49,206 nucleotides of DNA from Candidatus Peribacteraceae bacterium (lineage in GTDB: Bacteria > Patescibacteriota > Gracilibacteria > Peribacterales > Peribacteraceae), in assembly GCA_028711345.1 (NCBI GenBank), contig JAQTSK010000008.1, positions 1-49,206 of the forward strand, given 5' to 3'. The notes beneath the pieces are model-generated. The model did not search any database, was not told where the DNA came from, and saw nothing but the letters and a program-made list of their open reading frames with translations. Shown piece by piece: positions 150-44,216 of this stretch; position 1 is the stretch's first letter, and each line of letters opens with the position of its first letter. Both the position numbers and the translations under genes were made by a program.

Positions 150-228
150 TATGAATAATGTAAAGTGAAGTACGAAAGCTTATTTTTACATCAAATTATT
201 CATTCTTCATTTTCACTTCTCCATTTCT
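150..228. repeat. Tandem-unit palindrome (TGAATAATG / CATTATTCA-type units)
   Basis: The left arm has AT-rich units such as AATATGAATAATG and AAAGTGAAG. The right arm has their reverse complements (ATTATTCATTCTTCATT, TTCACTTC). The right arm ends just before the ATG at 231. This is one member of the window-wide family described in the findings. Confidence 0.5.
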
Positions 229-230
229 CT

Positions 231-755
231 ATGCGCTCCCTCCGTCTCTCCACCATCGTCGCCATCATCACACTTTCTTTCGCCGCTTGCGGAGGGAAAA
301 CCGTTATCAAACCTGATAACACCGCAACGGGCAAGATTCAGGAATACAACAAAGTCACCGGCAAGGATCTGGAAACCAGTCCCGAGCATGGCACGCTCGC
401 TCACCTGTGGTACGGCGCTCTGACGGGAATCAATGACACGCCGGCGAACGGTGTCGGATTCCTGCGGGAGTTCGAGGATGGCGTATTCACCGGCTCACTG
501 AACCTCAATATCCTGCCGCGGAAGGATGGTAAGCGCTTCATCGCATGGATGGCGAAGCCGGGAGGAGCGGATCCGGTGCGCGTGGGCGAACTCACCAGCA
601 TCGTGGGGGACTCCAGACACTCGCTGTCCTTCGAAGTGACCGAGATTCTCTCCGATCGCACGGTGGTTCTCATTACGCTCGAGACGACCCCCGAACCGGC
701 ATCTCCCGGCACACGCGCCGCGGAAGGCACGCTGAAGGAGGTGGAAAGGAAATAG
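231..755 (+). CDS. Putative lipoprotein, RskA-like C-terminal fold possible
   Basis: A 174-residue protein with a lipoprotein-type leader: MRSLRLS, a hydrophobic stretch, then FAAC with the lipid-attachment Cys at residue 20. The mature part (about residues 60-170) resembles in outline the extracellular part of anti-sigma-K factors: an FIAWMAKPGG strand, a VGEL strand, then LITLETTPEPASPG before the last strand. That is only a pattern impression. An upstream in-frame ATG at 165 would put the leader inside the repeat, so the ATG at 231, right before the leader, was chosen. No Shine-Dalgarno is visible; the 20 bases before the ATG are almost all pyrimidine. The protein is likely anchored outside the cytoplasmic membrane. 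Confidence 0.7.
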   Translation: MRSLRLSTIVAIITLSFAACGGKTVIKPDNTATGKIQEYNKVTGKDLETSPEHGTLAHLWYGALTGINDTPANGVGFLREFEDGVFTGSLNLNILPRKDGKRFIAWMAKPGGADPVRVGELTSIVGDSRHSLSFEVTEILSDRTVVLITLETTPEPASPGTRAAEGTLKEVERK

Positions 756-756
756 A

Positions 757-878
757 GATCGGTGATCGGGCTATCGGGGATCGGTGAAAAGGTGAGTGAT
801 TATTTCGGCTGAACTGAATGACCGACTGTTTTTAATACAACCACCCGATCACGGATCCCCGATCACCCGTCAGATCGG
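757..878. repeat. Tandem-unit palindrome (GATCGGTGATCGGG units)
   Basis: The left arm (757-786) repeats GATCGG/TGATCGGG. The right arm (842-878) repeats CCCGATCAC and CCCCGATCACCC, the reverse complement. The arms enclose about 55 bases. It lies between the lipoprotein stop and a possible small membrane peptide on the minus strand. It could act as a bidirectional terminator, but no U-tract follows either arm. Confidence 0.6.
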
Positions 879-992
879 CAGCGCCTGCGTCGGTAATGTC
901 TTCACCATCGCGACGATGACAAAGGCAAGCATTGCCACGTGCACGAGCACGAGAGTGAGAGTTGTTCGCTTGAGCGGTGAGATGAATTGCAT
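870..992 (-). CDS. Possible 40-residue single-span membrane peptide
   Basis: A minus-strand frame starts at 992 (ATG) and reads MQFISPLKRTTLTLVLV..., with one hydrophobic helix (about residues 10-30) between a basic N-terminus and a polar C-terminus ending TQALPI. It looks like a small membrane peptide and obeys the positive-inside rule. No Shine-Dalgarno is seen; the leader is CCGCTTCCCCT. Its stop falls in the palindrome arm at 870. It could be chance coding, so confidence is low. Confidence 0.3.
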   Translation of the reverse strand: MQFISPLKRTTLTLVLVHVAMLAFVIVAMVKTLPTQALPI

Positions 993-1310
993 AGGGGAAG
1001 CGGCAGTGTAAGGATTTCTTTACGTCTGTCGAGCTGTTTGATCAAGTTTTGTGTTCTGAATTCAATTTTTCTTTCAATCAAACGGCTAACCGTCGTACCA
1101 ACCGGAGGATTGGCAACGGTTAGTTTTCGCAGACCTATGGCAAACCCCTCATCCACTGGCGACCTCCGTGGCTTGCCATGAGAATGCGAACCAACAACAA
1201 ATCGTCATCTTTGCGCGTTGAGCCGACCCCACTGCCAGGAAGCGGCTGATTTTTTAAACGCTACCTCAACCTCGAATGACGTCTGTATTCCGGTCGATTT
1301 TCAGACGTGC
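993..1310. other. Intergenic stretch without a supported gene
   Basis: About 320 bases. Short frames exist on both strands but none shows protein-like composition. GGCTAACCGTCGTACC and GGCAACGGTTAG form a weak inverted repeat (AACCGT / ACGGTT) near 1085-1125. No promoter or terminator can be supported. Confidence 0.4.
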
Positions 1311-1937
1311 TTAGCTCCGATTACCTAACTCAAATCCTGTATCCAGACCACGTAATAGATTTCTTAGTCCTTGCATGCACGTTATGCGCCTTGGTAAAGG
1401 AGGATATTGAAGCGTTCCCTCTCCATCCACACTATAGGGAACTGTCCGCAGTAACTGATCACCTCTCCTCACACTATAGACGACTTGAGCAATATTTCGT
1501 AGTGGAGTTGAAGCTCCATTAACAGCATTCGCAGGAAAGCACCAACCATCAATATCAACCATTTCGTTTCCATCGGGAAAATCTCGGCTTTGCCTGGCCC
1601 TCTGGTTCTCCGTAGTTAAAAAATCGAAAGCATCAGTAGGTGCTTGTGCCAATTCGGTTCGAATCTGTGCACTTGGACGGATTGAAAGACAGCCTGCTTG
1701 CTTTAAAAGTAATTGTCTGTACCACTCTTGAAGACCTTCTCGACTATGCAAAGCTTCAAAAGGCTTAAATATGGCAGAACGCAAGCCTTGCAAAGGGATA
1801 CCTAATGGCAATGAAATGCCAGTAGATCCTTCTCGTTGCACAACACCATCAGCCGCATTTAAATCAACAATCAGATGTTTTCTTCCATTCCACTTATCCT
1901 TGGCCGTGGTCTGATCTGAAAGATATTCTGCTGACAT
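1311..1937 (-). CDS. Hypothetical protein, 208 residues
   Basis: No family is recognised. The protein is soluble, with no signal peptide or membrane segment, and contains stretches typical of folded proteins (LPLGIPLQGLRSAIFKPFEAL; DFPDGNEMVDIDGWCFPANA). The start at 1937 is supported by a promoter-like TTGACA at 1996-1991 and a leader with a run of six C just before the ATG (minus strand, 1948-1943). The same leader layout occurs at two unrelated genes (starts 9580 and 25732). Lower GC than its neighbours hints at acquisition. It stands alone, facing away from tRNA-Pro. Confidence 0.55.
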   Translation of the reverse strand: MSAEYLSDQTTAKDKWNGRKHLIVDLNAADGVVQREGSTGISLPLGIPLQGLRSAIFKPFEALHSREGLQEWYRQLLLKQAGCLSIRPSAQIRTELAQAPTDAFDFLTTENQRARQSRDFPDGNEMVDIDGWCFPANAVNGASTPLRNIAQVVYSVRRGDQLLRTVPYSVDGEGTLQYPPLPRRITCMQGLRNLLRGLDTGFELGNRS

Positions 1938-4942: not shown

Positions 4943-5030
4943 TGAGTATCGGGTATTCAGTATCAAGTATGTAGTATTCTGGAAAATTTCAGGATACTGA
5001 ATACTCAATACTGCATACCGAATACTCCGT
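4943..5030. repeat. Tandem-unit palindrome (GAGTAT/GTATTCAGTAT units)
   Basis: The left arm reads GAGTATCGGGTATTCAGTAT and on. The right arm is GATACTGAATACTCAATACT and on, its reverse complement in several units. A short AT-rich loop lies between. It sits 40 bases before the GTG start of the next gene. Confidence 0.8.
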
Positions 5031-7498: not shown

Positions 7499-7807
7499 TT
7501 ATCCGCTATACGCTGCTACTTTCCCCATCACCTCCACATCATCATCCCCCGCCGCCTTGTTCCGGATCTCTTTCTTACACCCGCGACAGCGATGAACAAT
7601 GACAAATCCGCCGGACTGCTGATCGATGGCGACGGGATCCATCAGTTTCCTGCACTCCGACAACCGGTCTCCCGGGCCGTCACGATCAACATGCAACGAT
7701 CGTAAGCAGTTCGGGCAATGATTGCGGCAACCGGTTCCTTCAAGCGGTCGGACGGTTGCGCCGCAGTGCGCGCAGATGAACGGTTCCTGACGGGGAATGA
7801 AAACCAA
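7499..7807 (-). CDS. RNHCP-domain zinc protein
   Basis: A 102-residue protein of the RNHCP family, named after the motif seen here as CRNHCPNCLRSLHVD. Zinc ligands: CAHCG near the N-terminus, the CxxxCPxC of the motif, and CRGC near the C-terminus. Function unknown in the family. The start is best placed at the TTG at 7807 (reads MVFIPRQEPFICAHCG); an ATG further upstream (7849) lies inside the palindrome and adds low-complexity residues. It is divergent from purD, with the palindrome 7809-7904 exactly between the two start sites. Confidence 0.8.
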   Translation of the reverse strand: MVFIPRQEPFICAHCGATVRPLEGTGCRNHCPNCLRSLHVDRDGPGDRLSECRKLMDPVAIDQQSGGFVIVHRCRGCKKEIRNKAAGDDDVEVMGKVAAYSG

Positions 7808-7808
7808 T

Positions 7809-7904
7809 GGAAAATTGATAATTGATAATTGAAAATTATTCATGGACAATCATACACAAGGAACTGCGGCAATTTTCCATTTTCAATTTACAATTTTCAA
7901 TTCC
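7809..7904. repeat. Tandem-unit palindrome (AATTGATAATTGAAAATT units)
   Basis: The left arm repeats AAAATTGATAATTGATAATTG. The right arm (7871-7904) repeats CAATTTTC/CAATTTAC. It fills the space between the divergent RNHCP and purD starts and could form a long AT-rich hairpin. Confidence 0.85.
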
Positions 7905-9316: not shown

Positions 9317-9513
9317 GTAGCGATCAGCGATCAGAAAGGTTCCTCAACGCAGTCAGCCGACCAATCGATGAGTCAAGTTATTATTGCTGGTTTCCTAATG
9401 GCAGAATCGGAAAGCCGCTGATCATCGAAATTTCATCGAACTTGAACATTCGATGCTCCCCTTCGGCGATAATCGAGAAATGCTGAACGCTGTTCGCTGA
9501 CCGCTGACCGCTC
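9317..9513. repeat. Split palindrome (GCGATCAGCGATCAG / CTGACCGCTGACCGCT) with about 140-base centre
   Basis: The left arm (9317-9338) repeats AGCGATC. The right arm (9482-9513) repeats GCTGACCGCTG. The centre, 9340-9480, has no gene-like composition and may itself be inserted sequence. The arm resembles that of the element at 10201-10273, so these two may share an origin. Confidence 0.65.
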
Positions 9514-10200: not shown

Positions 10201-10273
10201 CGAGCGATCAGCGACAAGCGGTTAGCGATTAGCACGGATTACCGTACGCTGATCGCTGATCGCTGTTCGCTAC
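10201..10273. repeat. Tandem-unit palindrome (GCGATCAG/GCGATTAG units)
   Basis: The left arm is GAGCGATCAGCGACAAGCGG and following units. The right arm is ACGCTGATCGCTGATCGCTG and on. The arms are separated by about ten bases. It lies between the convergent ends of the secreted protein gene and prfA, where it may stop transcription from both sides. Confidence 0.85.
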
Positions 10274-11362: not shown

Positions 11363-11464
11363 AGGATAAAGGATGAGAGGATGAGAGGAAATAGAGGATG
11401 AGAGGAAACGACAAGCGTTCGCTTCTTCTTCTCATCCTCTCCTCTTCTCAATCCTCTCCTCCTC
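11363..11464. repeat. Tandem-unit palindrome (GGATGAGA / TCTCATCC units)
   Basis: The left arm repeats GGATGAGAGGATGAGAGG and the right arm CTCATCCTCTCCTCTTCTC. On the minus strand it fills the gap between the DUF5671 gene stop (11467) and the prfA start (11356). The same unit recurs at 13801-13954. Confidence 0.88.
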
Positions 11465-13800: not shown

Positions 13801-13954
13801 GAAAAGGATGAGAGGATTGAGAAGAGGAGAGGATGAGAAGAGCTGTTATTTTGAAATTCCAAGCTGCTATACACAAAACCTGAAACCTGCAAACATGAAA
13901 CCTGATACTTTATTTCCTCTCCTCCTCTCTCACCTCTCCTCCCTCTCATCCTCT
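13801..13954. repeat. Split palindrome (GGATGAGAGG / CCTCTCATCC) before mnmA
   Basis: The left arm (13801-13841) repeats GGATGAGAGGATTGAGAAGAGGAG. The right arm (13916-13954) repeats CCTCTCCTCCTCTCTCACC and ends in CTCATCCTC right before the mnmA start. The centre includes a second small unit, ACCTGAAACCTGCAAAC. It uses the same unit as the element next to prfA. Confidence 0.8.
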
Positions 13955-15094
13955 TTGAAAATTCTTCTTGCCATGTCCGGCGGCATCGACTCCGGCGTCT
14001 GCGCGCACCTGCTGAAGCGCCAGGGGCACGAGGTGATCGGCGTCCGTCTGCATCTCTGGATGGATCCGCTGGCTCCGCCCATGGCACAGCTCATGCCGAG
14101 TAAATGCTGCACAACCCAGAGCATCAACCGCGCTTCGAATATTGCGAAGAGCCTCGGCATTCCTCTTCATACCGTCGATGTCGCGAGTGAATTCAAGAAG
14201 AAGATCGTCGATCAATTCTTGAAGGATTACGCAGCCGGACTGACGCCCAATCCCTGCGTGCTATGCAACCGGACCATCAAGCATGCGACGCTCATCAAGC
14301 TGATGAAGAAATACAGGTGCGACAAGGTGGCGACGGGGCACTATGCGAGAATCAAATGCAAAACCGATCGATCTGGAAAATCAATCTGCCAACTTCTGGA
14401 AGCCCGCGATACAACGAAAGATCAGAGCTACTACCTCTACAGCCTATCCCAAGAGCAGCTCGCCTCAACGATCTTCCCGCTCGGCGACCTGCTTAAATCC
14501 GAGGTCTACAAACTCGCCAAGAAATTCAAGATCCCGCTCTCGGATGCCTACCGCGAGAGTCAGGATCTCTGCTTCTTTCCGGAACAAGGTCCGTCGGCAT
14601 TCCTGAAGCGGCACCTGAAGAAAGCGAAGGCCGGAGAGATCGTCAAGCGCGATAGCTCCGTCGTCGGCAAACATTCCGGCATCCCCTTCTACACCATCGG
14701 TCAACGCCATGGTCTGGGGATCGGCGGGCTCAAGATCCCGCTGCAGGTGGTGGCGAAGGACACGAAGAGAAACCGCCTGATCGTCGCGGAGAGAGGACAG
14801 GAAACGTGCAAGAAAATCATGCTGACCGATCTGCACTTCATTGCGGGAACGCCGCCGAAGGATGGGAAGTACACATGCAGAACACGTTCGCTGTCAGCGA
14901 AGAAGAAAGGTACGTTCACAATAAATATATGTCATGGTGAGCGGAGTCGAACCATGACATGCAACGATGCAACCTTCACCTTCGCTCACCCCGAACCCCT
15001 GCAATCACCGGGGCAATCGCTGGTGCTATACAAGGGGAATGAAATAATCGGCGGAGGAACTATCGACGAGATTTGCTCGATCCTAGAACAGTAA
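13955..15094 (+). CDS. mnmA: tRNA-specific 2-thiouridylase
   Basis: Adds sulfur to U34 of tRNA-Lys, -Glu and -Gln. The PP-loop ATP site is LLAMSGGIDSGVCAHLL. Catalytic Cys are in NPCVLCNRTIKH and SQDLCFFPE; VATGHYAR and DQSYYLYSL also fit. 379 residues is normal with a TTG start at 13955, giving MKILLAMSGG as in relatives; an ATG at 13895 would code for repeat sequence. The C-terminal beta domain contains an in-frame palindrome (14931-14958) encoding CHGERSRTMTC, absent from typical family members. The last bases overlap a small minus-strand gene. Confidence 0.93.
   Translation: MKILLAMSGGIDSGVCAHLLKRQGHEVIGVRLHLWMDPLAPPMAQLMPSKCCTTQSINRASNIAKSLGIPLHTVDVASEFKKKIVDQFLKDYAAGLTPNPCVLCNRTIKHATLIKLMKKYRCDKVATGHYARIKCKTDRSGKSICQLLEARDTTKDQSYYLYSLSQEQLASTIFPLGDLLKSEVYKLAKKFKIPLSDAYRESQDLCFFPEQGPSAFLKRHLKKAKAGEIVKRDSSVVGKHSGIPFYTIGQRHGLGIGGLKIPLQVVAKDTKRNRLIVAERGQETCKKIMLTDLHFIAGTPPKDGKYTCRTRSLSAKKKGTFTINICHGERSRTMTCNDATFTFAHPEPLQSPGQSLVLYKGNEIIGGGTIDEICSILEQ
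14931..14958. repeat. 28-bp REP-like palindrome inside mnmA
   Basis: Arms GTCATGGT / ACCATGAC around GAGCGGAGTCGA. It is identical to the copy at 17016-17043 and related to the very common GTCATCCTGAGCGGAG repeats. It translates in frame within mnmA. Confidence 0.92.
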
Positions 15095-16907: not shown

Positions 16908-16950
16908 ACAAGTTGAGGTTGATGAAATGACACTTCAAGGAAGAACGGGC

Positions 16951-28245: not shown

Positions 28246-28394
28246 CGCTGCGGTTTGTTGGATGGGGTGTTGTCGGGTCTGAGAATGAGCGTGGCACCCC
28301 ACGCCGCAGCAAGTCGTGCCAATGCCTGAGGCATGGCAGCCTGATTCTCGGTGTCTTCTTGTGGTCGCCGATGATGTTTTCTGATAGTGTTCAT
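28242..28394 (-). CDS. Small coupled ORF upstream of the split primase, 50 residues
   Basis: It starts at 28394 with MNTIRKHHRRPQEDTEN. A helical stretch, AAMPQALARLAAAWGATLIL, follows. Its stop overlaps the start of the CHC2-like gene (ATGA), the usual sign of coupling. No homologue recognised; a frame open further upstream also exists. Confidence 0.4.
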   Translation of the reverse strand: MNTIRKHHRRPQEDTENQAAMPQALARLAAAWGATLILRPDNTPSNKPQR

Positions 28395-28403
28395 TTGCAA
28401 AAA

Positions 28404-28469
28404 GGAAAGAGCCACAAGCTGTGCGGCGCGGATGTTCCAAGGCATCTGTACTACGGAGGGGCTCTTTCC
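28404..28469. repeat. Inverted repeat before the primase operon
   Basis: GGAAAGAGCC (28404-28413) pairs with GGCTCTTTCC (28460-28469) across 46 bases. Read on the minus strand, the second arm is followed by TTTTTG, so it resembles a leader terminator or attenuator just upstream of the 28394 start. Confidence 0.5.
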
Positions 28470-28515
28470 CGTTGTGCGGGGTTCGCCAAATTGCCGACGC
28501 TTGGATAAGCGCGGT

Positions 28516-28761
28516 TCATTGTCGAGAGAAGAGAAGCGATTTGAGGTGTTTATGGGCAGCCAGAAGGCGCGAAGGAACCATAGGAATTGGTCGACCGCTT
28601 GCGAACGCAACAAGGAGTTCTCCTAATCCCTCGCTTCGTTCAAAACAAAACTTACGCCTTCTGTCATCGACTGGTTCAATGCCGATGAGAGGGATGCCAG
28701 AAGCGTAGAGAAAGGTAGCCTGCGGGAGATCAGAAGTAGAGAATGAATCATGAATACGCAT
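28516..28761 (-). CDS. DUF5659-type small protein
   Basis: 81 residues of the type FSTSDLPQATFLYASGIPLIGIEPVDD..KFCFERSEGLGELLVAFASG..MVPSRLLAAHKHLKSLLF. This is the pattern of DUF5659 proteins, common on mobile elements of CPR and other bacteria, near primase genes. The start at 28761 (MRIHDSF) is favoured. Function unknown. Confidence 0.7.
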   Translation of the reverse strand: MRIHDSFSTSDLPQATFLYASGIPLIGIEPVDDRRRKFCFERSEGLGELLVAFASGRPIPMVPSRLLAAHKHLKSLLFSRQ

Positions 28762-28804
28762 GGGAGCCGAAGGTAAGAAAAATGCTCCCGCACGATAAAG
28801 CGGC

Positions 28805-28856
28805 ACTGTTACGTCAATGCGAAATAAACGTTACCTCAGTGTTACGCCACTGCGAC
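28805..28856. promoter_or_regulatory. Three phased GTTAC repeats, candidate operator
   Basis: GTTACG at 28808-28813, GTTACC at 28830-28835 and GTTACG at 28841-28846. The start-to-start distances are 22 and 11 bases, close to two and one helical turns. They lie between the winged-helix gene's stop and the DUF5659 promoter region, where a repressor could bind. Confidence 0.4.
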
Positions 28857-29912
28857 TAACCGGCTCGAATGTTCTACGAACGTCCAACCCTTGCCTCGCT
28901 CGTTCTCAATATCACACTCACTAAAGTAACGAAGGAGTATTGTTCGGAGTGTTGACACATATTTTCTGATGGCTGTCCGACGTCCCGTCGCGGGTTCTCG
29001 CACACGTTCGCCGTAAATAGCTTTGGCGATGTCGATGTACGAGACATAACCAACCCCTTTCCCCAAAAGGGCATAGAGGGTTTGCCCCACAGCGGGTTCA
29101 AGGTCGTTCGCCTTCTCTCCGTCTACGTACACAGCTCCGTCATCAAGAGCCATGAGTCTCCCATCAAAGGCATAGACGGCGTTCTCCGGAGCATCTCCCT
29201 TCTTCAATTTAGGGGGCGTAATCTTTTCTGCAATTTGAGATTTTCTTGGTGCGGCTATAGCGCAAGGCATTTTCGTCGTACCCAAACAATAATTATCAAA
29301 ATACCACTGCAAATCGTCCATTTTTTTCTTCAGAGTTTTCTTTTGCTGTTCACTCTTTGGGGGCTGATCAGCATCAAGAATGGCTGACACCTTCATGCAG
29401 TAGTCCTTGAGCTGCGGAGACTTTGTATAGGCGGGCAGAAGTTTCTCTGCGCAAAAAGTTTTGAATGCCGTTACGATGCGCCCCCAGTCACTTCCAAAGG
29501 ATTCTCCTTTTTCAAAGAATTCGTCCAAATTCTCCCCGAATGCATCAAGATTACCGCTATGACGAAAACTTTCATCAGTTCTTTCAATCCATTTTTTAAT
29601 CTCATCCAGCAAGCTTATGATCGCATGAAGTTGTAGATTTGCTCTCTCGATGAGATCTCTCGTACCAGTCAAATCGAGATCTCTAGTTAATGATCCCGCA
29701 CCTACACTCTCTGTCCCATATTTCTTTTCCATAATTTCGTCGAAAGCCTTACCAAAACTTTTCGGTAAAGCAGGGTCTTTTATTAATGCCTCAGCGAAGA
29801 CTGGGCGAGTCAGTTGATAATGATTACTAGAGATCCCGCGCATTCCATTCAACACGAGTCCTACCTTGGCAATTTCTATCTCGTCGTGAAGCTCTCGGAT
29901 GTTCATGCTCAT
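28842..29912 (-). CDS. Element-encoded protein with C-terminal winged-helix domain
   Basis: 356 residues. The N-terminal two thirds are helical and charged, with no motif. Residues about 265-345 resemble an OmpR/PhoB-type winged helix (VYVDGEKANDLEPAVGQTLYALLGKGVGYVSYIDIAKAIYG followed by AIRKYVSTLRTIL and a final ERGKGWTFVEH hairpin). It likely binds DNA, perhaps the phased GTTAC repeats next to its end. A TAAAAT sits nine bases before the ATG. AT-rich, as is the rest of the cargo. Confidence 0.65.
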   Translation of the reverse strand: MSMNIRELHDEIEIAKVGLVLNGMRGISSNHYQLTRPVFAEALIKDPALPKSFGKAFDEIMEKKYGTESVGAGSLTRDLDLTGTRDLIERANLQLHAIISLLDEIKKWIERTDESFRHSGNLDAFGENLDEFFEKGESFGSDWGRIVTAFKTFCAEKLLPAYTKSPQLKDYCMKVSAILDADQPPKSEQQKKTLKKKMDDLQWYFDNYCLGTTKMPCAIAAPRKSQIAEKITPPKLKKGDAPENAVYAFDGRLMALDDGAVYVDGEKANDLEPAVGQTLYALLGKGVGYVSYIDIAKAIYGERVREPATGRRTAIRKYVSTLRTILLRYFSECDIENERGKGWTFVEHSSRLVAVA

Positions 29913-29986
29913 AGTGTCAATATTTTACCATTTCCTACACACAAACCGAAGTTATTGGTGTCATGGTGCCTCGGATTTTCGTTCAT

Positions 29987-31414
29987 CTATTCGTCAAAAA
30001 GAGGCTGAAGCCATTCAAGAACAGGATCTATTCCAACAACATACCCCAAACCCTCCGCTGTTCCGCTCACTATAAATGTCGGAATACCGATTAGTTCTCC
30101 TTTCTCATTTAGAGCCGCACCACCAGAATTTCCAGAATCAATTTTTGCTGATGTTTTAATGTAATAGTCGCCAAGTCGCCCACTCATCACACCCTGGGTC
30201 AGTGTCAGCGTATCACCTCCAAAAGATGGATAACCTATAATGAATAATTTATCATTGAATGTGAGTACATCCGAAGAACCGATTTTGCCGATTGTCGGAA
30301 ACTCGCTTGGCATTGTGAATCCATCCCTTGCTCCAACAATTCTCAGTATTGCGACATCAATTTCCTTGTTATCTAAAGTAAATCTTCGCTCATCTTCCTC
30401 AAACTCTGTATCAGCCATGAAGCCATATTCAGGTTTTTTGGCTGGGTCATTTGTGAATCCTACAGCGCAATAATTTTTAGTAACATTTTCTACAACATGT
30501 TTATTAGTCAATATCAGACCATTTTCCCCAACCATAATTCCTGAGCCTCCGACAAGATCTCCATTATCCTGTTCGCAGATTATTGAAACCACAGCCGAGA
30601 GTTGTTTGCTGAAGTCAAATTCTTCAGTAACAAACTTTTTCTTTTCAGTTCCTTGTTCATTTGTCTGTGAAAAAAGATCGGTATTAAGCAACATTCTTGT
30701 TGGAATATTTCTCACTCCTTCACGAATAAATGTCTCTGCACCTTCATCTTCAATGGAAAGCGACGAAAAATAGCCTGCTAATATGACAGCAGTAATAGCA
30801 ATTACAGCCTTATGCCAGTTCTTAGGGAGATAGTGATTTTCCTCTTTAGCGTATTTCTCTCTTATATCAATCACAACTGTTCTAAACCATTTGTCATGTA
30901 AAGACTGTTTATGTTGGTCTTTTGATGCTACATATAACTCAATAAATGGTAGTACTGGAATAGTCTTCACAATATTTCGTAAGAAGCCCGTTTTGAAACT
31001 AATTCTTGTCATGTCCTCGTTCGCTACTTTTAGATTGAAGAACCATTTACCAACTGAAAAACCGCACCAAGATTCAAGTAGCGACATATAAATCGAAAAG
31101 ATCAAAGAGGTCAGTAGCCAATCAGCAGTAGCATTAATATTTGAGAAAACATCGGAGTCAAAACCTACCAATACCCATACTCCACCTATGACAAAAAAAA
31201 TCACAAACACCGCATAAGTATCAATTAGATATGCAAAATACCTACGCCAAAGACTTGGGTATTTTATGCCATCACTTTGAACCACCGGTGTAGCTACTTT
31301 CGTGACTGCTGGCGCTTTCTTAACCTCATTGGAGACAATCAACTTTATGCCGCAGAATTTACAAAATTTAGCGTTAGGCTTAGCGATTTCTGCGCCGCAT
31401 TGTTTGCAAAACAT
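29987..31414 (-). CDS. Zinc ribbon-RDD membrane-trypsin-like protease fusion
   Basis: 475 residues. A zinc ribbon has C3, C6, C18 and C21 (MFCKQCG..KFCKFCG). An RDD-type membrane domain (about 50-200) has WRRYFAYLIDTYAVFVIFF and two to three spans. One further span lies at about 210-228. The C-terminal trypsin-like (HtrA/S1) protease has triad His306 (NKHVVENV), Asp353 (EIDVAILRI) and Ser430 (DSGNSGGAAL). No PDZ domain was seen. The zinc ribbon faces the cytoplasm, and the protease would lie on the far side if the last span is single; the topology is inferred. Start placed at 31414, one base after the previous gene's stop, so co-translation is likely. Confidence 0.85.
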   Translation of the reverse strand: MFCKQCGAEIAKPNAKFCKFCGIKLIVSNEVKKAPAVTKVATPVVQSDGIKYPSLWRRYFAYLIDTYAVFVIFFVIGGVWVLVGFDSDVFSNINATADWLLTSLIFSIYMSLLESWCGFSVGKWFFNLKVANEDMTRISFKTGFLRNIVKTIPVLPFIELYVASKDQHKQSLHDKWFRTVVIDIREKYAKEENHYLPKNWHKAVIAITAVILAGYFSSLSIEDEGAETFIREGVRNIPTRMLLNTDLFSQTNEQGTEKKKFVTEEFDFSKQLSAVVSIICEQDNGDLVGGSGIMVGENGLILTNKHVVENVTKNYCAVGFTNDPAKKPEYGFMADTEFEEDERRFTLDNKEIDVAILRIVGARDGFTMPSEFPTIGKIGSSDVLTFNDKLFIIGYPSFGGDTLTLTQGVMSGRLGDYYIKTSAKIDSGNSGGAALNEKGELIGIPTFIVSGTAEGLGYVVGIDPVLEWLQPLFDE

Positions 31415-31415
31415 A

Positions 31416-32105
31416 CTAGTGCTTGGAGGGAAGTGAAGTGCCACAATGCTGGCAGAACTTGCCATCAGATTCGGTTTCTTTACCGCAAAAAGTACACATC
31501 CTGATGCCACGAGCTGCGTATTTCGCGAACTCATTATGGCATTGGTTCATCAATTCAGATAAGACTGCAGCATTGGTAATTGCTAATGGAATGGAGATGA
31601 ATTCTTGTTTTGCATTTCTCTCTGTGAGATACCAAACGTGTACAACAGCAGATTGCAGGTCTGAGCCAGCAAATTGATGCCAAGGCACTACAACAAGACC
31701 TCTGAATAGTGTTTTCTTATTAAATCCATCCCTATTTAGGCTAAGACCTCCCATTCTGATCGTTCCACCTCCAAGAATTAATAAGAATAATCGTTTGACA
31801 ATGATTGGTTCAAAGAACTTCTTTGATAAAAAGAATAGTTGGTTAAAGACTTTGTTCGGTTCAGTACTACCCCCAGGAATATTGATGGAGATAGCTGCTG
31901 AATCCGTCCCAATATAAAAGGAAGATGTAGTACTAGTATTTACTGGGATAAAATAAATGCTCGTTCGTGTTGTTGTTGAATGATATGAGATACGAGAGAG
32001 ATCTTTGATCGCCAGCTTGGTTGATCCATAGCAAATTTCATCGTCAGATATTACAATCTTCTTTTTTAGCCAGCCTGGGATTGTGAGTTCAATAGGTGTG
32101 CTCAT
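31416..32105 (-). CDS. PH-like domain protein with C-terminal zinc ribbon
   Basis: 229 residues. It appears to hold two bacterial PH-like beta domains (about 10-95 and 105-180; KKKIVISDDEICYGSTKLAIKDLSRISY is the first). The same zinc ribbon as its neighbours lies at the very end (RMCTFCGKETESDGKFCQHCG). No membrane span is certain; one hydrophobic stretch, RLFLLILGGGTI, may be a strand. It precedes the protease gene with one base between, so they are partners in one operon. Confidence 0.7.
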   Translation of the reverse strand: MSTPIELTIPGWLKKKIVISDDEICYGSTKLAIKDLSRISYHSTTTRTSIYFIPVNTSTTSSFYIGTDSAAISINIPGGSTEPNKVFNQLFFLSKKFFEPIIVKRLFLLILGGGTIRMGGLSLNRDGFNKKTLFRGLVVVPWHQFAGSDLQSAVVHVWYLTERNAKQEFISIPLAITNAAVLSELMNQCHNEFAKYAARGIRMCTFCGKETESDGKFCQHCGTSLPSKH

Positions 32106-32121
32106 ATATCAACAAAGAGAA

Positions 32122-32781
32122 CTATTTCCTGTACTTATCCTCAATCTGTCCGAAAAAGTATCCCCAAATAATCCCACCCATGATTTCTCCTCGTAGGGCT
32201 TCTAGTGCCTTCGTATTCATTCTCTTTTGAGATTGGAAGTACGACTCAAATAAGGAATTGAAGCGAAAGTTGCTGTATGTATCGATGACCATTCTCGCAT
32301 CCAATCCAATCTTGGCATACTCAGTATTAAAATCTATTTTTTGTAATTCCTTTCTTAATTCCTCTTCAGAAGGCTCATGTTCAAAAGTACTCAACGACTT
32401 TTTGTATAGCAAGCGATTAGCTAAATAAAGTCGGTACCCTCCTGGATAAGAGAGCTGCAAAGCTAAACGTAATGCCTGAACAAAAGCGTACGTTTCTTGT
32501 TTAATCTCTTCATGTTTAGAAAGCATTTTTTCCAAATCATTGTTCGCCAGGTTGTTCATTATGGTCCACGTAGCGGGACTAATGAGCGCATTATACTTCT
32601 CTCGTTCTTCACCAGTTGAATCATGAATTTCAGCAAACTTGTCAAAGAGTGTAACTGCCTTTTGTGGAGTCTTATCAGCGACTTGAGCAGTGCCTGTTTT
32701 TGTAAGTTTAAGTCCACAGAAACCACAAAACATTGAATCTTCCGGAATTGATTTCCCACAATCTGTACAATAAATAGCCAT
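32122..32781 (-). CDS. Zinc ribbon protein, helical, 219 residues
   Basis: The N-terminal ribbon reads MAIYCTDCGKSIPEDSMFCGFCG. The rest is mainly alpha-helical (DKFAEIHDSTGEEREKYNALISP; KMLSKHEEIKQETYAFVQALRLALQLSYPGG) with no enzyme motif. The start was moved to 32781 (MAIYC) because ribbons of this type begin at the N-terminus. 16 bases separate it from the PH-like gene, same operon. The C-terminus is amphipathic (GGIIWGYFFGQIEDKYRK). Confidence 0.7.
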   Translation of the reverse strand: MAIYCTDCGKSIPEDSMFCGFCGLKLTKTGTAQVADKTPQKAVTLFDKFAEIHDSTGEEREKYNALISPATWTIMNNLANNDLEKMLSKHEEIKQETYAFVQALRLALQLSYPGGYRLYLANRLLYKKSLSTFEHEPSEEELRKELQKIDFNTEYAKIGLDARMVIDTYSNFRFNSLFESYFQSQKRMNTKALEALRGEIMGGIIWGYFFGQIEDKYRK

Positions 32782-32874
32782 AATATGTAAACGATTGTAC
32801 ATTTATTATTCCATGGCTCAACCATAATTCAATAAGTGTTTAAAAATGAGCAATTACCATCTAAGCTGTGCAAT

Positions 32875-33831
32875 GTGAATAATTACTGTACTAATTGCGG
32901 AAGACCCAATCCACAAGAACATAAGTTTTGTAGAATATGTGGATCAGAGTTCCTGCCGGTCACTACGTTCAACTCGCAACGTCAGGGATTTAATGACTCG
33001 AAAACTAGCACCCTGCCATTCTATAAAAGAAAGAGTTTTGCTGTTTCTGTCATCACAGGTGTCGTCATTTTACTGGCATTCATTGGTAACTGGAAACTAG
33101 AGCAGAAATCTGAGCGAGAAATTGAAATTATTAACAGAATGGAAACAGCAGTCCGTGAAATTGGAAAGCACATTGAGTCTATAAGCGAAAATAGAATGGC
33201 TCTGTCCCATGGAACAACGAGGTCATTCTATGACAGGGTTTATTCAAATGATGACATAAACATTCCTTTAGTTGTTAACTTAGCAACAGAAACCGTAAAT
33301 CTTTATGAGGATTATGTAGAGGAGTTTGGATCTGACAGATCCCAATTCGATCATGTTGCCAGCCTCGCAAGAACAGCCTTCTTTTTTGTTAAGCAAGAGG
33401 AAGTTGATCGTGCTGCACCTGAGAGAAATATTGCTGCGATCTCAAATATTATTAACCGCATTAACACTTTCTCTAATAAGGAACCATTCCACACACATCT
33501 TGAGAATGAACGACTTCTGGATGAACTTATGGAATACAAAGCAGTACTACAACAATCTAAAGAATTTGCAGATGCATTGATCGCGATAAATGAACTTGAG
33601 CGTAAGATTAATGCTTTATCAGAAGCAGCTGAATATAATTATGACGCAAACAAAAAATACAATCAGTTGGTCGAAACTTACAATATGAAGCTGAAGCAGG
33701 TTAAGCTAATTTCCAAAACCATCTCCAGCCAAGATACTCATAAAGCGAAATTCTCACTTGTTGATGTAGAATTATTGATTCCATCTGTTGATGAAATCGG
33801 ACTTACTAATTCTTCGGGTGCTATCAAATAA
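32875..33831 (+). CDS. Zinc ribbon, membrane span, coiled-coil protein
   Basis: 318 residues from the GTG at 32875 (reads MNNYCTNCGRPNPQEHKFCRICG). After the ribbon comes a span near residues 52-70 (AVSVITGVVILLAFIGN), then about 240 residues with long helices and little else (EIEIINRMETAVREIGKHIES, ELERKINALSEAAEYN). No known domain. It is divergent from the other operon. A GTG at 32836 is also in frame but lacks support. Confidence 0.7.
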   Translation: MNNYCTNCGRPNPQEHKFCRICGSEFLPVTTFNSQRQGFNDSKTSTLPFYKRKSFAVSVITGVVILLAFIGNWKLEQKSEREIEIINRMETAVREIGKHIESISENRMALSHGTTRSFYDRVYSNDDINIPLVVNLATETVNLYEDYVEEFGSDRSQFDHVASLARTAFFFVKQEEVDRAAPERNIAAISNIINRINTFSNKEPFHTHLENERLLDELMEYKAVLQQSKEFADALIAINELERKINALSEAAEYNYDANKKYNQLVETYNMKLKQVKLISKTISSQDTHKAKFSLVDVELLIPSVDEIGLTNSSGAIK

Positions 33832-33872
33832 AGGTGGTATTCATAAAGATCGATCCTGACGTACTACAGTCA

Positions 33873-34017
33873 TTATTTTTGTTTCATCGAACTTGCATAC
33901 AGTAATCCGAGGCATTCACGACACTTCCATCGCGAATAATCCAAACAATACAGGCTTTCAAGGGGCTTCCCGCAGCTCGGACAAAGGAAATAGTACCTGT
34001 AGGTTTGTGAGCCTTCC
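33873..34017 (-). pseudogene. Truncated copy of the zinc-ribbon gene at 34735-35007
   Basis: Matches the 3' half of that gene closely, but 11 bases are missing near 34001 and the first half is absent. It still reads FLCPSCGKPLESLYCLDYSRWKCRECLG and ends at TAA (33875-33873). It lacks a start. Confidence 0.85.
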
Positions 34018-34057
34018 GCTTCTATGAATGTTATTGGTTATGTGGTAAATTCAGCCA

Positions 34058-34693
34058 ATGTACTGTCAGCAGTGCGGAGGCAAGACTGATGAAGCAAACG
34101 CTAAGTTTTGTAGGCGTTGTGGTGCTCCTCTTGAAAATACAGGGGAGACCAAGCCAAAAACGCATTTAGGAAATGTCTCGTCAGACGCTAGGAAAGTAAA
34201 GATGATCGCTCTGCATATTAAATGGTGCAATGCCCTCTTTTTAGGTGGGATTCTGATAGCGATTATTGGAGGAATATTACAAAGTGAAATCATCTTAGCA
34301 TTTGTCGGATTTGCTATTTTTGGCGTCATCTATTGCATGATTGCAATTGAGATACTGGTTTGGAAGTCATTATGGAAGTATGCAGCAATTCTTTTTCTTC
34401 TTTTTGGAGGCTTCATTGGAATCATCTGCTTTTTTATTGCATACGGTGATGCAAAAATGATTCTGAAGAAATCAGGTTATACACTGGGTATTTTTGGTCC
34501 CCGCGAAATTGATTTCTTTGGTAAGAAACTTGCAGAAATACAACCTTTAACAATAAAAGATGACTTACTCAAAAAGCGAAACGTTAATCCGATCGTTAGT
34601 TTTATTCGGATTCTGGTGATTTTCCTACTGGCTATTGGAATTCTTTCTGTTCTTGCTGCCATCATTATTGTTGCCCTCAATCCAGCAAAGTAG
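34058..34693 (+). CDS. Zinc ribbon membrane protein with pilin-like last helix
   Basis: 211 residues. The zinc ribbon has C3, C6, C18 and C21. Four spans lie at about residues 57-75, 80-98, 100-118 and 121-140. After a cytoplasmic stretch of about 45 residues a last span reads FLLAIGILSVLAAIIIVALNPAK and ends the protein. That last segment resembles the hydrophobic N-terminus of type IV prepilins of CPR bacteria, including the NPAK ending. TAAATT lies six bases before the ATG, so a leaderless message is possible. Confidence 0.7.
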   Translation: MYCQQCGGKTDEANAKFCRRCGAPLENTGETKPKTHLGNVSSDARKVKMIALHIKWCNALFLGGILIAIIGGILQSEIILAFVGFAIFGVIYCMIAIEILVWKSLWKYAAILFLLFGGFIGIICFFIAYGDAKMILKKSGYTLGIFGPREIDFFGKKLAEIQPLTIKDDLLKKRNVNPIVSFIRILVIFLLAIGILSVLAAIIIVALNPAK

Positions 34694-34734
34694 CTCTGTA
34701 TAAAACGAACTATTTTTCACTAATGTCACAACGA

Positions 34735-35007
34735 TCATCGCTTCATCGAACTCGAATACAATAATCCAAGGCAATCACGGCACTTCCACTGTGAATAATC
34801 CAAACAATACAGGCTTTCAAGGGGCTTCCCGCAGCTCGGACAAAGGAAATAGTACCTGTAGCCATTGCGGAGGTTTGTGAGCCTTCCTGTGACGGCAATC
34901 TCCTGTGTACCCACATCAAGAATGGCACTTGTCGCCTTCGGAGGAATTGCGCCCTTCACTTCGGAGATCCGCAGCCGTTGGCAATACTCAAGGAGTGGCT
35001 TTCTCAT
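34735..35007 (-). CDS. Zinc-ribbon protein, 90 residues
   Basis: A single ribbon of the type LCPSCGKPLESLYCLDYSQWKCRDCLG (zinc ligands CxxC-x15-18-CxxC plus an extra Cys). The N-terminal part (ISEVKGAIPPKATSAILDVGTQEIAV) is beta-rich. Such proteins often accompany recombinases or resemble transposase-associated ribbons. The start overlaps the next gene's stop by 20 bases. A damaged duplicate lies at 33873-34017. Confidence 0.7.
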   Translation of the reverse strand: MRKPLLEYCQRLRISEVKGAIPPKATSAILDVGTQEIAVTGRLTNLRNGYRYYFLCPSCGKPLESLYCLDYSQWKCRDCLGLLYSSSMKR

Positions 35008-35623
35008 TGCGATTGGGCACGGGTATTGATTCTGCGACCCTCGGAGCTTGTCCTTGGTTCACCTGCTGATTCTGCGCGAAGAAAGCGTTGGTCGCCTTCA
35101 CTTGGATGGGTGGTTGCACAAGGTTCTGGAGTGCCTGCGTGAGCCGGAGGATCTGATCATTCATGCTCTCTATCCCGCGACGCGCCTCTTTCAAGTATGC
35201 GGTATTTTCATGTGAGCGATTCCATGAATAGGTACCGTCTTCACTCAATTTGTACTTTCCAAGATGGAAGGTTCTTTCGTAAGAAAATGCCATGCTCCAT
35301 GCAGAAGTGATGCGATCGAGAAGAATCCTTTTGATGGGCGTTTCATCCCCATATTGGTTAGCCAGCTCTGCACGGACTCGATTGGCAAATACTTTCAGAT
35401 CCTTATCGGCAAAATGTGTCGAAAGATCACCATTCTTATGCATTATTGCCACACTGACTTTCTGAGTAAGTGTTTCGTGCTCTGCATCCTCTTCCTTGCT
35501 GCGCTTTTTCTTCTCACGCAGCTTGTGCAAAGCAACAATATCCATCCGATCCTGATACTGAAGTTCAGACTCTCCGAGTTGTCTCGGTTGGTCATCCTTC
35601 AGTAGAACAAGTGTAGATTGCAT
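34988..35623 (-). CDS. Hypothetical protein of the element, 211 residues
   Basis: No family recognised. It is charged and helical in the middle (LREKKKRSKEEDAEHETLTQKVS), then has a folded-looking region (DKDLKVFANRVRAELANQYGDETPIKRILLDRITSAWSMAFSYE), ending with a Gln/Pro-rich tail. It lies beside the recombinase, divergent from it, with 118 bases between. It may be a control or accessory protein of excision. Confidence 0.6.
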   Translation of the reverse strand: MQSTLVLLKDDQPRQLGESELQYQDRMDIVALHKLREKKKRSKEEDAEHETLTQKVSVAIMHKNGDLSTHFADKDLKVFANRVRAELANQYGDETPIKRILLDRITSAWSMAFSYERTFHLGKYKLSEDGTYSWNRSHENTAYLKEARRGIESMNDQILRLTQALQNLVQPPIQVKATNAFFAQNQQVNQGQAPRVAESIPVPNRNEKATP

Positions 35624-35741
35624 TACTTAATGCTATGTCTAAATCCTTAGAAAATGAAGACCTCCAAGCAAATCTGACCCTGTGTGCTTGCTTCATTCGT
35701 GTGGTCGGGTTTATATTTATGAAGGTTATTCTTAACCCACT

Positions 35742-37548
<1,807 letters not shown>

Positions 37549-39031: not shown

Positions 39032-39145
39032 GGTTTGAGGTGATAGGTAATAGGTTTTAGGTGTTAGGTTCCAGATGACAGGTGAAATGATCGATATCGA
39101 ATTGGGAATACTGCCGATCACCTAATACCTAAAACCTAGAACCTC
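39030..39145. repeat. Tandem-unit palindrome (TAATAGGTTTTAGGTGTTAGG units)
   Basis: The left arm repeats AGGTGATAGGTAATAGG. The right arm is CACCTAATACCTAAAACCTAG. The loop is about 40 bases. It lies between the hisS stop and the small gene downstream of gyrB, both ends convergent. Confidence 0.88.
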
Positions 39146-39339: not shown

Positions 39340-41855
<2,516 letters not shown>

Positions 41856-42592: not shown

Positions 42593-42626
42593 GCGAACTG
42601 GGGATTCTAGTAGATAATAATTGTAA

Positions 42627-42721
42627 TGAAAGGTAGCAGGTAGTTGGTAGCAAGTAGCAAGGTTTCATCTATTTGTCGCCAGAATCCCCCTGCTACCCGC
42701 TACTTACTACTTGCTACTTTC
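42627..42721. repeat. Tandem-unit palindrome (GGTAGCAGGTAG / CTACTTACTACTTG units)
   Basis: The left arm is AGGTAGCAGGTAGTTGGTAG and on. The right arm is GCTACCCGCTACTTACTACT and on. It ends two bases before the next ATG. Confidence 0.88.
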
Positions 42722-42722
42722 C

Positions 42723-43109
42723 ATGGCCGACCAATCACAACCACCAGCCACAAGTCTACTGATCCCTCCGGAGATTCTGGCGCAATTCGGACCGATCATC
42801 GAACTCGTCAAGGGTTCCGAGAGCATGAACAACGAGGAACGGCAGTACTGGGTCAACATCCTGCCCATCATGACACCGGATCAGCGCAAGAATCTGGAAG
42901 ACATTCTGGTGAGTGAGAAACAGCAGCTTGCAGCAATTGACGCGAAGTACAGCCGGAATACCCAGCCTCCCGTCAACCAAGCGAGTGTCGCAGAAGTCGG
43001 TCTGAAGATCCGCGAGAAGAAGCAGGAGCGGGAGCAGATGGAACAGGTGGAACAGGCCAGGGAAGCAGGGAAGGAAACGGACATCCTGTCGCAGATACAG
43101 GCATTGTAA
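42723..43109 (+). CDS. Hypothetical protein, 128 residues
   Basis: Soluble and helical: a first part rich in Pro (PPATSLLIPPEILAQFGP) and a second part of charged repeats (KIREKKQEREQMEQVEQAREAGKE). A phrase NNEERQYWVNILPIMTPDQRKNLEDIL is characteristic and probably helical. No family recognised. It starts directly at the palindrome arm with leader GCTACTTTCC. Confidence 0.65.
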   Translation: MADQSQPPATSLLIPPEILAQFGPIIELVKGSESMNNEERQYWVNILPIMTPDQRKNLEDILVSEKQQLAAIDAKYSRNTQPPVNQASVAEVGLKIREKKQEREQMEQVEQAREAGKETDILSQIQAL

Positions 43110-43110
43110 C

Positions 43111-43140
43111 TTCAAACAGTTAACTGTTAACAGTTCACGG
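43111..43140. repeat. Short self-complementary run (AACAGTTAACTGTTAACAG)
   Basis: CAGTTAACTG units, palindromic in themselves. It lies between the convergent 3' ends of the 128-residue gene and holA. Confidence 0.7.
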
Positions 43141-43151
43141 TTAATTTGTTG

Positions 43152-44123
43152 CTATCCGCACAACAAAATCACACGCTCGATCAACGCCACCACTTCCTCC
43201 TGCCGATCCGCGGAATAATGATGACCGCCGGACTTGAGCGCCAGATCCGCCTCAGCGGCGGTATCGATGATGCGTCGCAGGCAATGAGCGGAAAGAGAAC
43301 GGGCAAGCGGCACGAGACCACGGATGGCATAGGGGCTGACTGCGAATGCCGTAGCGATGGTCCGTTCATCCTGCCGGCCTTCCTGCAGAGAAGACCAGAC
43401 AAGGGCGAGATTCTTGAGTGCGTTTAACAGAATGCCCCAGAATTGATAGGCGTCTTCACCTCGATCGAGACGATGATGGAAGAACCTGATCGCTTCGTAG
43501 GGTTGTCTGCCGCCGATCAAATCGGTGAACCTCCAAATGATCTGATCGCCGGACGGCAGGGAGAGTGCATCGACATCCGGAGAGCGGATGGAAGCGTCTG
43601 AGAATAAAACAAGCTTCTGCAATTCGCCGAGAAGCATCCACTGATCCGTCCCGACGGTCTGAAGAAGATTGCGCACCGCGGCATCGTCGATGGATGCATG
43701 CAGTTTGGCCGCCTCTTTGCGTATCCACTGATCGATTTCGTGTTCGGAGAGCGCAGGATACCGTTTCACATCCGCGCAGGATTCGATATCCTTCACCACC
43801 CCGAGCCGCTTATCCGGCTTCGGTTCGACGATGGCCACCACCACCTGCGGATGAATGTTCCCCGTCAACGACTTGAACTCCTCGCGCGAAAGAGGCGGCA
43901 ACCCATCGATGATGACCAGACGTTTCTCCCCGAGGAACGGCATGGTCGCCGCGGCATCCAGAAGTCTGGAGAGCGTTTCTCTGCCGGATATCTCGAGAAA
44001 ATTCTCCTCTCCGTACTTTTCTAAAAACGCAGACTTCCAACGCTTCAGCTCGCGCCTGAGCGCAAAATCATTCTCGCCGGTGAAGAAGTGAAGATTGGGT
44101 ACCTTCGATCGTGCGGGAGGCAT
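43152..44123 (-). CDS. holA: DNA polymerase III delta subunit
   Basis: 323 residues. Clamp loader subunit that opens the beta clamp. Seen: HFFTGENDFALRRELKRW (N-terminal strand), MPFLGEKRLVIIDGLPPLSREEF, VVVAIVEPKPDKRLGVVKDI, LLGELQKLVLF (the EL-KL helix), and a C-terminal domain with RGLVPLARSLSAHCLRRIIDTAAEADLALKSG. The start was moved to 44123 (MPPARSKVPNLHF), because the upstream ATG lies in palindromic DNA. Confidence 0.9.
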   Translation of the reverse strand: MPPARSKVPNLHFFTGENDFALRRELKRWKSAFLEKYGEENFLEISGRETLSRLLDAAATMPFLGEKRLVIIDGLPPLSREEFKSLTGNIHPQVVVAIVEPKPDKRLGVVKDIESCADVKRYPALSEHEIDQWIRKEAAKLHASIDDAAVRNLLQTVGTDQWMLLGELQKLVLFSDASIRSPDVDALSLPSGDQIIWRFTDLIGGRQPYEAIRFFHHRLDRGEDAYQFWGILLNALKNLALVWSSLQEGRQDERTIATAFAVSPYAIRGLVPLARSLSAHCLRRIIDTAAEADLALKSGGHHYSADRQEEVVALIERVILLCG

Positions 44124-44140
44124 CAAATGGATGTTACGAG

Positions 44141-44216
44141 GAAAATGAGAATACGAGAATATCAGAATATGAGACGAACTGCGTCCGCTTACTCTCATAT
44201 TCTAATATTCTTATCC
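44141..44216. repeat. Tandem-unit palindrome (GAGAATACGAGAATATC / GATATTCTAATATTC units)
   Basis: The left arm is AATGAGAATACGAGAATATC and on. The right arm is TCTCATATTCTAATATTCTT and on. It lies 17 bases before holA's start on one side and 70 bases before the dockerin gene on the other. Confidence 0.85.

Follow-up and report, generated by a model that had tools for sequence, protein, structure and literature searches.

Paired arrays of short repeat units in a Candidatus Peribacteraceae genome: anatomy, turnover and possible origin

We examined a 49,206-bp stretch of DNA (the window), one contig (JAQTSK010000008.1) of the 1.77 Mb draft genome of a Candidatus Peribacteraceae bacterium. Among its genes are purD and mnmA, it holds an integrative element, and Rfam at gathering thresholds finds three tRNAs over the window and nothing else. 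Its intergenic gaps contain palindromes whose arms are tandem arrays of a short unit, often a heptamer, repeated on one side and inverted on the other. Such arrays recur through the genome and its relatives in many unit classes, mostly under common rules of size, polarity and internal design, and are the subject of this report.

Unit-built palindromes in the window and the genome

A scan of the window for palindromes scoring at least 13 returned 11 strong ones, versus 0, 0, 0, 0, 1 and 3 in six Markov shuffles. Nine are unit-built, with imperfect repeats at 757 and 13801, while the other two scan matches are not unit-repeats. All nine belong to the 14 loci that a first-pass annotation of the window had listed as two-armed palindromes of short units (Table 1); the remaining five listed loci are weaker (weak, wide apart, interrupted, one-armed or self-inverse). 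Its further statement, that the unit differs at nearly every locus, holds only in part and can mislead: exact consensus units are diverse, with 59 different ones among 129 heptamer arrays of the genome, but most units belong to classes recurring through this genome, the genus and the family, and some window loci share theirs (GGATGAGA at 11363 and 13801, AGCGATC at 9317 and 10201).

Our sample of this genome comprised about 651 kb, window included. At a score of at least 12 it holds 84 arrays of period 7, 34 of period 8 and 63 of period 14, versus none at these periods in one shuffle, which scored one each at periods 12, 15 and 23. A laxer threshold gave 129, 58 and 76 arrays at periods 7, 8 and 9 (2, 4 and 4 shuffled). 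Palindromes were surveyed in intergenic gaps of 60-500 bp: 98 of 262 gaps hold one scoring at least 12 (1 when shuffled), and 57 of the 69 strongest (at least 14) are unit-repetitive, mainly with period 7, 8 or 9. Relatives sampled were a sister species of the same genus (G001, about 219 kb), a genome of the same family (G013, 399 kb) and single stretches of others; the first two have palindromes in 30/67 and 41/143 gaps, each versus 0 shuffled. Period-7 arrays occur at 14.3 and 24.6 per 100 kb within the genus and at 0 to 25 elsewhere, mostly in samples of 17-40 kb. The shuffled controls proposed in the first-pass annotation put the palindromes above chance in both window and genome.

Heptamer arrays are mainly intergenic, 91 of the 129 lying outside called genes, and by context the intergenic arrays number 88 in tandem, 19 in convergent and 34 in divergent gaps, versus 70, 19 and 32 kb of such gap. 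They track gap length, with no preference for gene 3' ends or convergent gaps, and we rejected intrinsic terminators as an explanation.

Table 1. Unit-built palindromes and neighbouring features of the window
Listed locus	Positions	Feature	Arms and other details	Standing
150	143..211	weak palindrome, 74% inverted repeat		weaker
757	757..869	palindrome, imperfect unit GATCGGT	arms about 757-794 and 842-869	strong
4943	4944..5027	AGTATNN palindrome	arms 4944-4984 and 4987-5027; pattern match G000:C21:4959-5012	strong
7809	7806..7902	AATTGAN palindrome upstream of purD	sister genome has AATGTAN..CTACATT in the same place	strong
9317	9319..9512	AGCGATC/AGCGGTC arrays	9319-9334 and reverse complement 9482-9512, about 150 bp between	weaker
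10201	10203..10271	AGCGATC palindrome	arms 10203-10233 and 10247-10271	strong
11363	11370..11463	octamer GGATGAGA palindrome	sister genome has nonamer AGAGGAACC palindrome in the same gap	strong
13801	13801..13954	GGATGAGA palindrome	AAACCTG array (13876-13905) nested in loop; absent at this place in sister genome	strong
	14930..14961	REP-type hairpin GTCATGGTGAGCGGAGTCGAACCATGAC	within the mnmA frame	
	15788..15866	palindrome, not unit-repeats	scan match	
16951	16949..16988	TTAGCTT heptamer array	interrupted by the REP-type composite at 16986-17113	weaker
	16986..17113	two REP hairpins inside AACCTCTGAAAAA inverted repeat	scan match, not unit-repeats	
21853	21873..21906	one-armed octamer array	consensus CCCTGTTG	weaker
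	25800..37509	integrative element		
	35742..37490	large serine recombinase	frame overlaps tRNA gene	
	37436..37509	tRNA gene		
39030	39038..39144	AGGTNNT palindrome	arms 39038-39069 and 39120-39144	strong
42627	42626..42724	GGTAGCN palindrome	arms 42626-42662 and 42688-42724	strong
43111	43115..43144	AACAGTT array	self-inverse unit	weaker
44141	44141..44211	octamer GAATATGA palindrome	arms 44141-44174 and 44193-44211	strong

The integrative element had been described as free of these palindromes (25.8-37.4 kb), and the window scans agree; the stretch is short, so the absence there says little by itself. Besides its recombinase the element encodes several zinc-ribbon proteins. Palindromes of another kind, of the repetitive extragenic palindromic (REP) type, also occur in the window: the hairpin within the mnmA frame has closely similar copies of 25-40 bp in many family genomes, and the composite that splits the TTAGCTT array resembles composites in other gaps.

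Unit classes and the anatomy of the arms

Classes were grouped and named by eye, and 27 of the 98 paired elements fall outside any of them. At period 7 we distinguish AATGTAN, AATGGAN, AATTGAN, AGTATNN, AGCGNNN, AGGTNNT, GTAGYNN, GGTTTNN, GTTAANN and ATTGGNN; at period 8 AAATKGYT, AANARGGC and GGATGAGA; at period 9 the GTAAGGTAC and CGGACTCCT types. Inverted pairs are frequent: 95 of the 187 period-7 and period-8 arrays of this genome have an inverted partner within 160 bp, versus 5 after random placement, and in the sister species the figures are 43 of 80 versus 3. Direct copies nearby are rarer than inverted ones (15 and 4, respectively).

Each class has a polarity. In 69 of the 71 classified elements the same strand of the class lies in the 5' arm, with two in reverse. 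The 5' arm also has more G than C in 49/51 and 18/19 unit palindromes of the genus; non-unit palindromes of this genome are evenly split (9 against 8, with 1 equal). Telomere-type end addition would call for a G-rich strand that runs 3' toward the junction on both sides, and the bias seen in the genus is not shared by G013. A purine-rich 5' arm does not hold as a universal rule, being broken by the GGTTT units, nor do stop codons in all frames hold as a common feature, since by eye the AGCGATC and AAGCGAC classes have none on the 5' arm.

The AGTAT class was followed farthest. A pattern of three AGTATNN units, a gap and three ATACTNN units matched 102 stretches in a collection of genome contigs, where by our own arithmetic the chance expectation is negligible (about 1e-5). 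Sources among the 80 listed of these 102 include Patescibacteria, Bacteroidota, Balneolaceae, Verrucomicrobia, Kiritimatiellales and Chloroflexota, with Pedobacter, Mucilaginibacter, Bacteroides, Aquimarina and others among the Bacteroidota carriers in the matches listed; the core therefore recurs in four phyla (Patescibacteria, Bacteroidota, Verrucomicrobiota and Chloroflexota). Its spread is sporadic, as the forward palindrome occurs in 2 of 379 genomes sampled evenly from the phylum, and the reverse-polarity arrangement in 0 of the 379. Elsewhere, AGTATNN loci also hold arrays of other units, some familiar (AATTTTC and ATTGGTC in Bacteroidota) and some unfamiliar. Spread by phages was considered and rejected: in a collection of viral contigs the forward palindrome is found in one stretch (L241 13229-13280) and the reverse in none.

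The AGTAT loci used for loops, spacer mirroring and arm sizes were picked by a pattern that admits forward polarity only, with a gap of 5-35 and each arm holding three perfect cores. Their own polarity and core perfection therefore prove nothing alone; an early polarity count of 105/107, dominated by these loci, is not used as evidence. Independent of the pattern are the forward and reverse scans of phylum genomes, the inverted-partner counts, the core and spacer columns and the class polarity count.

With the register anchored on cores picked by eye, mismatches between neighbouring copies cluster at fixed columns in 7 of 10 classes, dividing the unit into a constant core and a free spacer; the counts by column are [6 0 1 0 0 36 21] for AGTATNN and [0 0 0 7 14 0 49] for AATGTAN. 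The core is likewise kept in lone arrays and in arrays within genes; lone arrays in genes have mismatches at 9/376 core versus 38/212 spacer positions, a circular contrast to the extent that the spacer columns were taken from the core/spacer analysis of the same arrays. AGTAT spacers use all 16 dinucleotides.

Period-7 arrays have a sharp length mode at 31-33 nt (60% of 178 lie at 30-35 nt), period-9 arrays one at 40-42, and AGTAT arms of Patescibacteria carry five cores in 62 of 108 cases. AGTAT loops have a median of 21 nt and are nearly unrelated to one another, with a mean pair score among 67 elements of 5.36 versus 5.15 shuffled, although 10 of 2211 pairs score at least 12 (1 shuffled) and 6 at least 14 (0 shuffled). 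The class thus has the layout of a foldback element, with subrepeat arrays inverted about a loop that is mostly unrelated from element to element, and as sequence the complementary heptads with their free positions could form a stem-loop.

If one arm had been copied from the other, spacers should be mirrored between arms. Among 82 AGTAT elements 45 of 203 are, versus 41.8 when permuted within elements (p=0.28), and anchoring on the outer ends gives 31 versus 42.0; the other classes show no mirroring either, with 4 to 9 elements or none each. Spacers of one AGTAT element resemble each other more (0.232) than do spacers taken from different elements (0.081), a difference confounded by species composition.

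Arrays within genes and turnover between sister species

About a fifth of the arrays of this genome lie in called genes, 38 of 129 at period 7 and 4 of 58 at period 8, counts that are approximate as our simple home-made gene caller misses some genes. The arrays in genes are mostly lone (39, versus 16 paired), and they are oftener perfect (25/55) than intergenic ones (17/112). Of 48 array-bearing gene queries 34 matched other DNA, and 16 alignments were inspected. In carB the array lies in a linker; five relatives lack 16-32 residues there, and two more carry different variable sequence. Compared with one G013 ortholog each, ligA and tsaD have 10 and 7 extra residues at their arrays, and murD has 9 and 7 at its arrays compared with one ortholog of the sister species. 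In these four conserved genes the arrays are thus in frame and absent from the compared orthologs. No clean insertion is seen in several of the 16 inspected genes; RsmF-like orthologs have nearly the same length, and some genes have no ortholog spanning the array.

Some single genes carry four or five separate arrays (L034:4303-5631, L054:3231-4358, L091:4815-8408). Translated, arrays in genes give peptides like SDQRSAISDQ and NQKPETRNQKP, a possible source of error in protein searches.

Comparison with the sister species shows different units at the same site. Upstream of purD, AATTGAN here stands against AATGTAN in both arms in the syntenic contig of the sister, and in the gap beside prfA an octamer palindrome faces a nonamer one. 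Palindromes with different units at orthologous sister sites agree with the first-pass annotation in that one architecture is seen with different units. It had also suggested checking whether the unit changes while the palindrome stays. Over 20 orthologous gaps a palindrome is present in both species in 8, in this genome only in 6, in the sister only in 3 and in neither in 3; the shared occupancy of 8 is what independence predicts (7.7), so that in gaps a change of unit under a persisting palindrome is not separable from independent gain, and we rejected it there. By eye, five of the eight doubly occupied gaps have clearly different units, two similar units and one the same class. Genes offer a better case: in the carB linker and a PurP-like gene the arrays of the two sisters occupy one and the same site, where the core has been kept while nearly all copies have an altered spacer, and here a change of unit in place is favoured.

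One AGTAT element has been inherited nearly identical by both species, and its arms differ at four core positions and one spacer position. Decay of core and spacer together in this element suggests that the core is set at birth and not maintained.

Origin of the arrays and related repeat systems

Our best explanation, held tentatively, is that the palindromes are foldback-type elements made genome-wide by the insertion of short unit arrays through some enzyme. It builds on what was observed: the architecture, classes that recur, their fixed polarity, the 31-33 nt mode of heptamer arrays, occurrence both between and inside genes, and turnover that ran independently in the two sister species. 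An element has two inverted arrays flanking a short loop, with some 4 to 5 units in each; units measure 6-9 nt and usually combine a core with a free spacer. Ready-made arrays of near-fixed size would go in at a break or insertion point, one to each side, after being written or captured in the form specific to their class; arrays could also go in singly. Neither arm would be copied from the other, slippage could later renew the spacers within one arm, and the elements would be mostly neutral passengers.

The origin offered in the first-pass annotation was another: palindromes made from local sequence, by template switching or by a REP-like enzyme. An origin of the units in local sequence is not supported, as each class keeps its polarity across the genus and the AGTATNN design occurs in other phyla. 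The nearly unrelated loops and unmirrored spacers of AGTAT argue against fold-back template switching, the other classes having too few elements to add much, and the absence of mirrored spacers and of locus-specific units, where testable, tells against local template switching.

Several results weigh against the insertion of arrays as we picture it. No inserting enzyme was found, and no search was aimed at genes for templated repeat-adding enzymes; no target motif appears in 164 AGTAT flanks beyond apparent decayed units. The rules also have exceptions: GGTTT, GTTAA and ATTGG show no significant contrast of core and spacer, octamer arrays have a broad length distribution without a sharp mode (36% of 61 at 30-35 nt), Bacteroidota AGTAT arms mostly have 3-5 cores with a few long outliers, and in G013 the 5' arm shows no excess of G over C (9/16). 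Three of the eight doubly occupied gaps do not have clearly different units (one the same class, two similar). The core is kept in the carB linker and the PurP-like gene, the opposite of the decayed inherited AGTAT element, so that selection on the core is possible. Finally, the nearly unrelated loops speak against transposition of whole heptamer elements.

That last point bears on the idea that these are conventional non-autonomous transposons, miniature inverted-repeat transposable elements (MITEs) or foldback elements, moved in trans by a transposase that binds the unit arrays. Whole-element copying is clear for the GGATGAGA class, since the 13801 element has near-full copies, loop included, at G000:C77:53753-53908 and G000:C66:17709-17861 (78-81% identity), and it is hinted at by the few related AGTAT loop pairs. 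Fixed polarity, presence in genes and the likeness to foldback elements would also fit. As a general account we consider it unlikely, in view of the mostly unrelated loops of the 67 AGTAT elements and the flanks without a target motif; moreover, the genes of REP-associated tyrosine transposases (RAYTs) accompany other REPs.

Likewise unlikely is a neutral origin in which replication slippage makes the arrays and template switching at hairpins (quasipalindrome correction) copies one arm onto the other. In the available text of two accounts (PMC4679880, PMC4692102), heptanucleotides are reported to outnumber all other long simple repeats in most of the genomes examined, with polymerase slippage as a proposed source. 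Spacer changes common to nearly all copies of an arm, as in the carB linker and the PurP-like gene, are what slippage would leave, and the more frequent perfection of arrays in genes and the likeness of AGTAT spacers within elements, confounded as it is, point the same way. The arms are not mirrored, however; heptamer lengths have a mode instead of declining from the shortest, and mismatch columns are uneven in most heptamer classes, which argues against slippage alone. Nor would it explain classes and polarity common to a genus, an AGTAT core found across phyla, or a core constant even in lone arrays (with columns chosen from the same arrays).

Functional sites under selection, such as arrays bound by a protein in RNA or DNA, terminators or insulators with the core as recognition site, seem improbable. 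The constant core and free spacer of most classes, the inverted pairs, and the kept core with changed spacers in the carB linker and the PurP-like gene would suit such sites, and the TAACTGA repeats of Beggiatoaceae have been proposed as sites of translational regulation (PMC4679880, in the available text). Yet the number of intergenic arrays goes with the length of gap, whatever the orientation of the adjoining genes, and 38 of the 129 heptamer arrays fall within called genes; gain and loss between sisters fit independence, the one inherited element decays in its core too, and many unrelated cores exist side by side in one genome.

As a bolder version of array insertion, a repeat-writing activity present in several phyla might extend both 3' ends at a break by about 4.5 class-specific copies of a core with a loose spacer and then join the ends. 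We rate this as a long shot, and to our knowledge no such repeat-adding enzyme is known in this setting. If it were true, the inverted arrays of near-fixed size, their fixed polarity, unmirrored spacers and random loop would be its scar, a bacterial counterpart of telomeric-repeat insertion at breaks. Interstitial telomeric sequences are short repeat arrays at internal sites of double-strand breaks, tied in vertebrates to break repair and telomerase RNA (PMC7215372, PMC8537989, in the text available). By analogy of arrangement, the inverted arms resemble a head-to-head join of two ends extended by repeats, the layout of such sequences; the many unit classes here are a difference.

The weakest candidate, that the palindromes are REP elements of RAYT (Y1) transposases, is very improbable: all five Y1_Tnp loci of this genome (L123-L127) carry distinct, non-unit REP hairpins of at least four types by eye, which also tells against the REP-like enzyme of the first-pass annotation. 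In its favour, Y1_Tnp matches number five in this genome, seven in the sister and none in the heptamer-poor G013, and three of the five genes have unit arrays no more than 1.5 kb away (in L126 a nonamer palindrome, in L124 and L127 single arrays), as does the gene that was read in the sister. Arrays are dense, so some are expected near these genes; G014 and G005 have no Y1_Tnp match, yet two arrays each in 40 kb, and in place of one conserved palindrome sequence per family we find arms made of unit arrays with free spacers and, in AGTAT, nearly unrelated loops.

Earlier notices of bacterial heptamer repeats dealt with a single unit or a handful each, in scattered bacteria, and left their cause unsettled. 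The first-pass annotation pointed to heptamers of cyanobacteria, and the parallel is a good one. In Nostoc and Calothrix, heptads in which some positions are fixed and others free make up the P6b stem-loop of the trnL intron (TDNGATT in Class I, NNTGAGT in Class II), a design like the core and free spacer here, and a whole class has repeatedly been replaced between relatives (PMC4476775, in the available text). Those heptads belong to one cyanobacterial intron locus, unlike the many loci and classes, intergenic and genic, in Patescibacteria. Xanthomonas has intergenic GGGAATC heptamers with 70 and 75 cases of two close convergent arrays and extensive variation in length and sequence between species; in its available text that account covers one unit class, with no modal arm size or core-plus-spacer unit, compared with many classes here (PMC4692102). 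The heptamer TAACTGA is scattered across phyla (marine Beggiatoaceae, cyanobacteria, Bacteroidetes) without a known route of transfer, in sets that are almost all direct (169, versus 1 indirect) and mostly just upstream of start codons, as far as the available text goes (PMC4679880). Here other units dominate, arrays form inverted pairs and gene orientation is not preferred.

Two systems resemble ours in layout. Drosophila Foldback elements have inverted repeats of tandem subrepeats around an unrelated loop, but they are eukaryotic, far longer and have known transposon relatives. Palindromic elements of Rickettsia are reportedly inserted in frame in conserved genes; in our case the insertions are unit arrays of many classes, and those in genes are mostly lone. 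Short unit arrays do, all the same, occur in frame inside essential genes.

Heptamer repeats, the Xanthomonas pairing, the Nostoc heptad stem-loops and the cross-phylum TAACTGA are already in print. In the searched literature, judged by titles and the starts of abstracts, we found no prior description of a genome that combines many classes with a preferred array length, polarity by class, units of core plus free spacer and unmirrored arms, and no account of multi-class palindromes of this design in Patescibacteria. Here one genome carries many classes under common rules, and the inverted AGTAT core recurs in four phyla, with the provisos that polarity there is imposed by the search pattern and that Bacteroidota arms are shorter. 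An old curiosity thus becomes a testable question of how bacteria build or acquire short inverted arrays.

Palindromes of two further kinds were seen in G013. A GACCCCCTCTCCCT composite palindrome is present in multiple copies in its gaps (L065, L067, L070, L081, L082), and near 19404 of L073 lies a palindrome with a telomere-like unit, its 5' arm made of repeats of the TAGGGT type and its 3' arm of the CCTAAC type.

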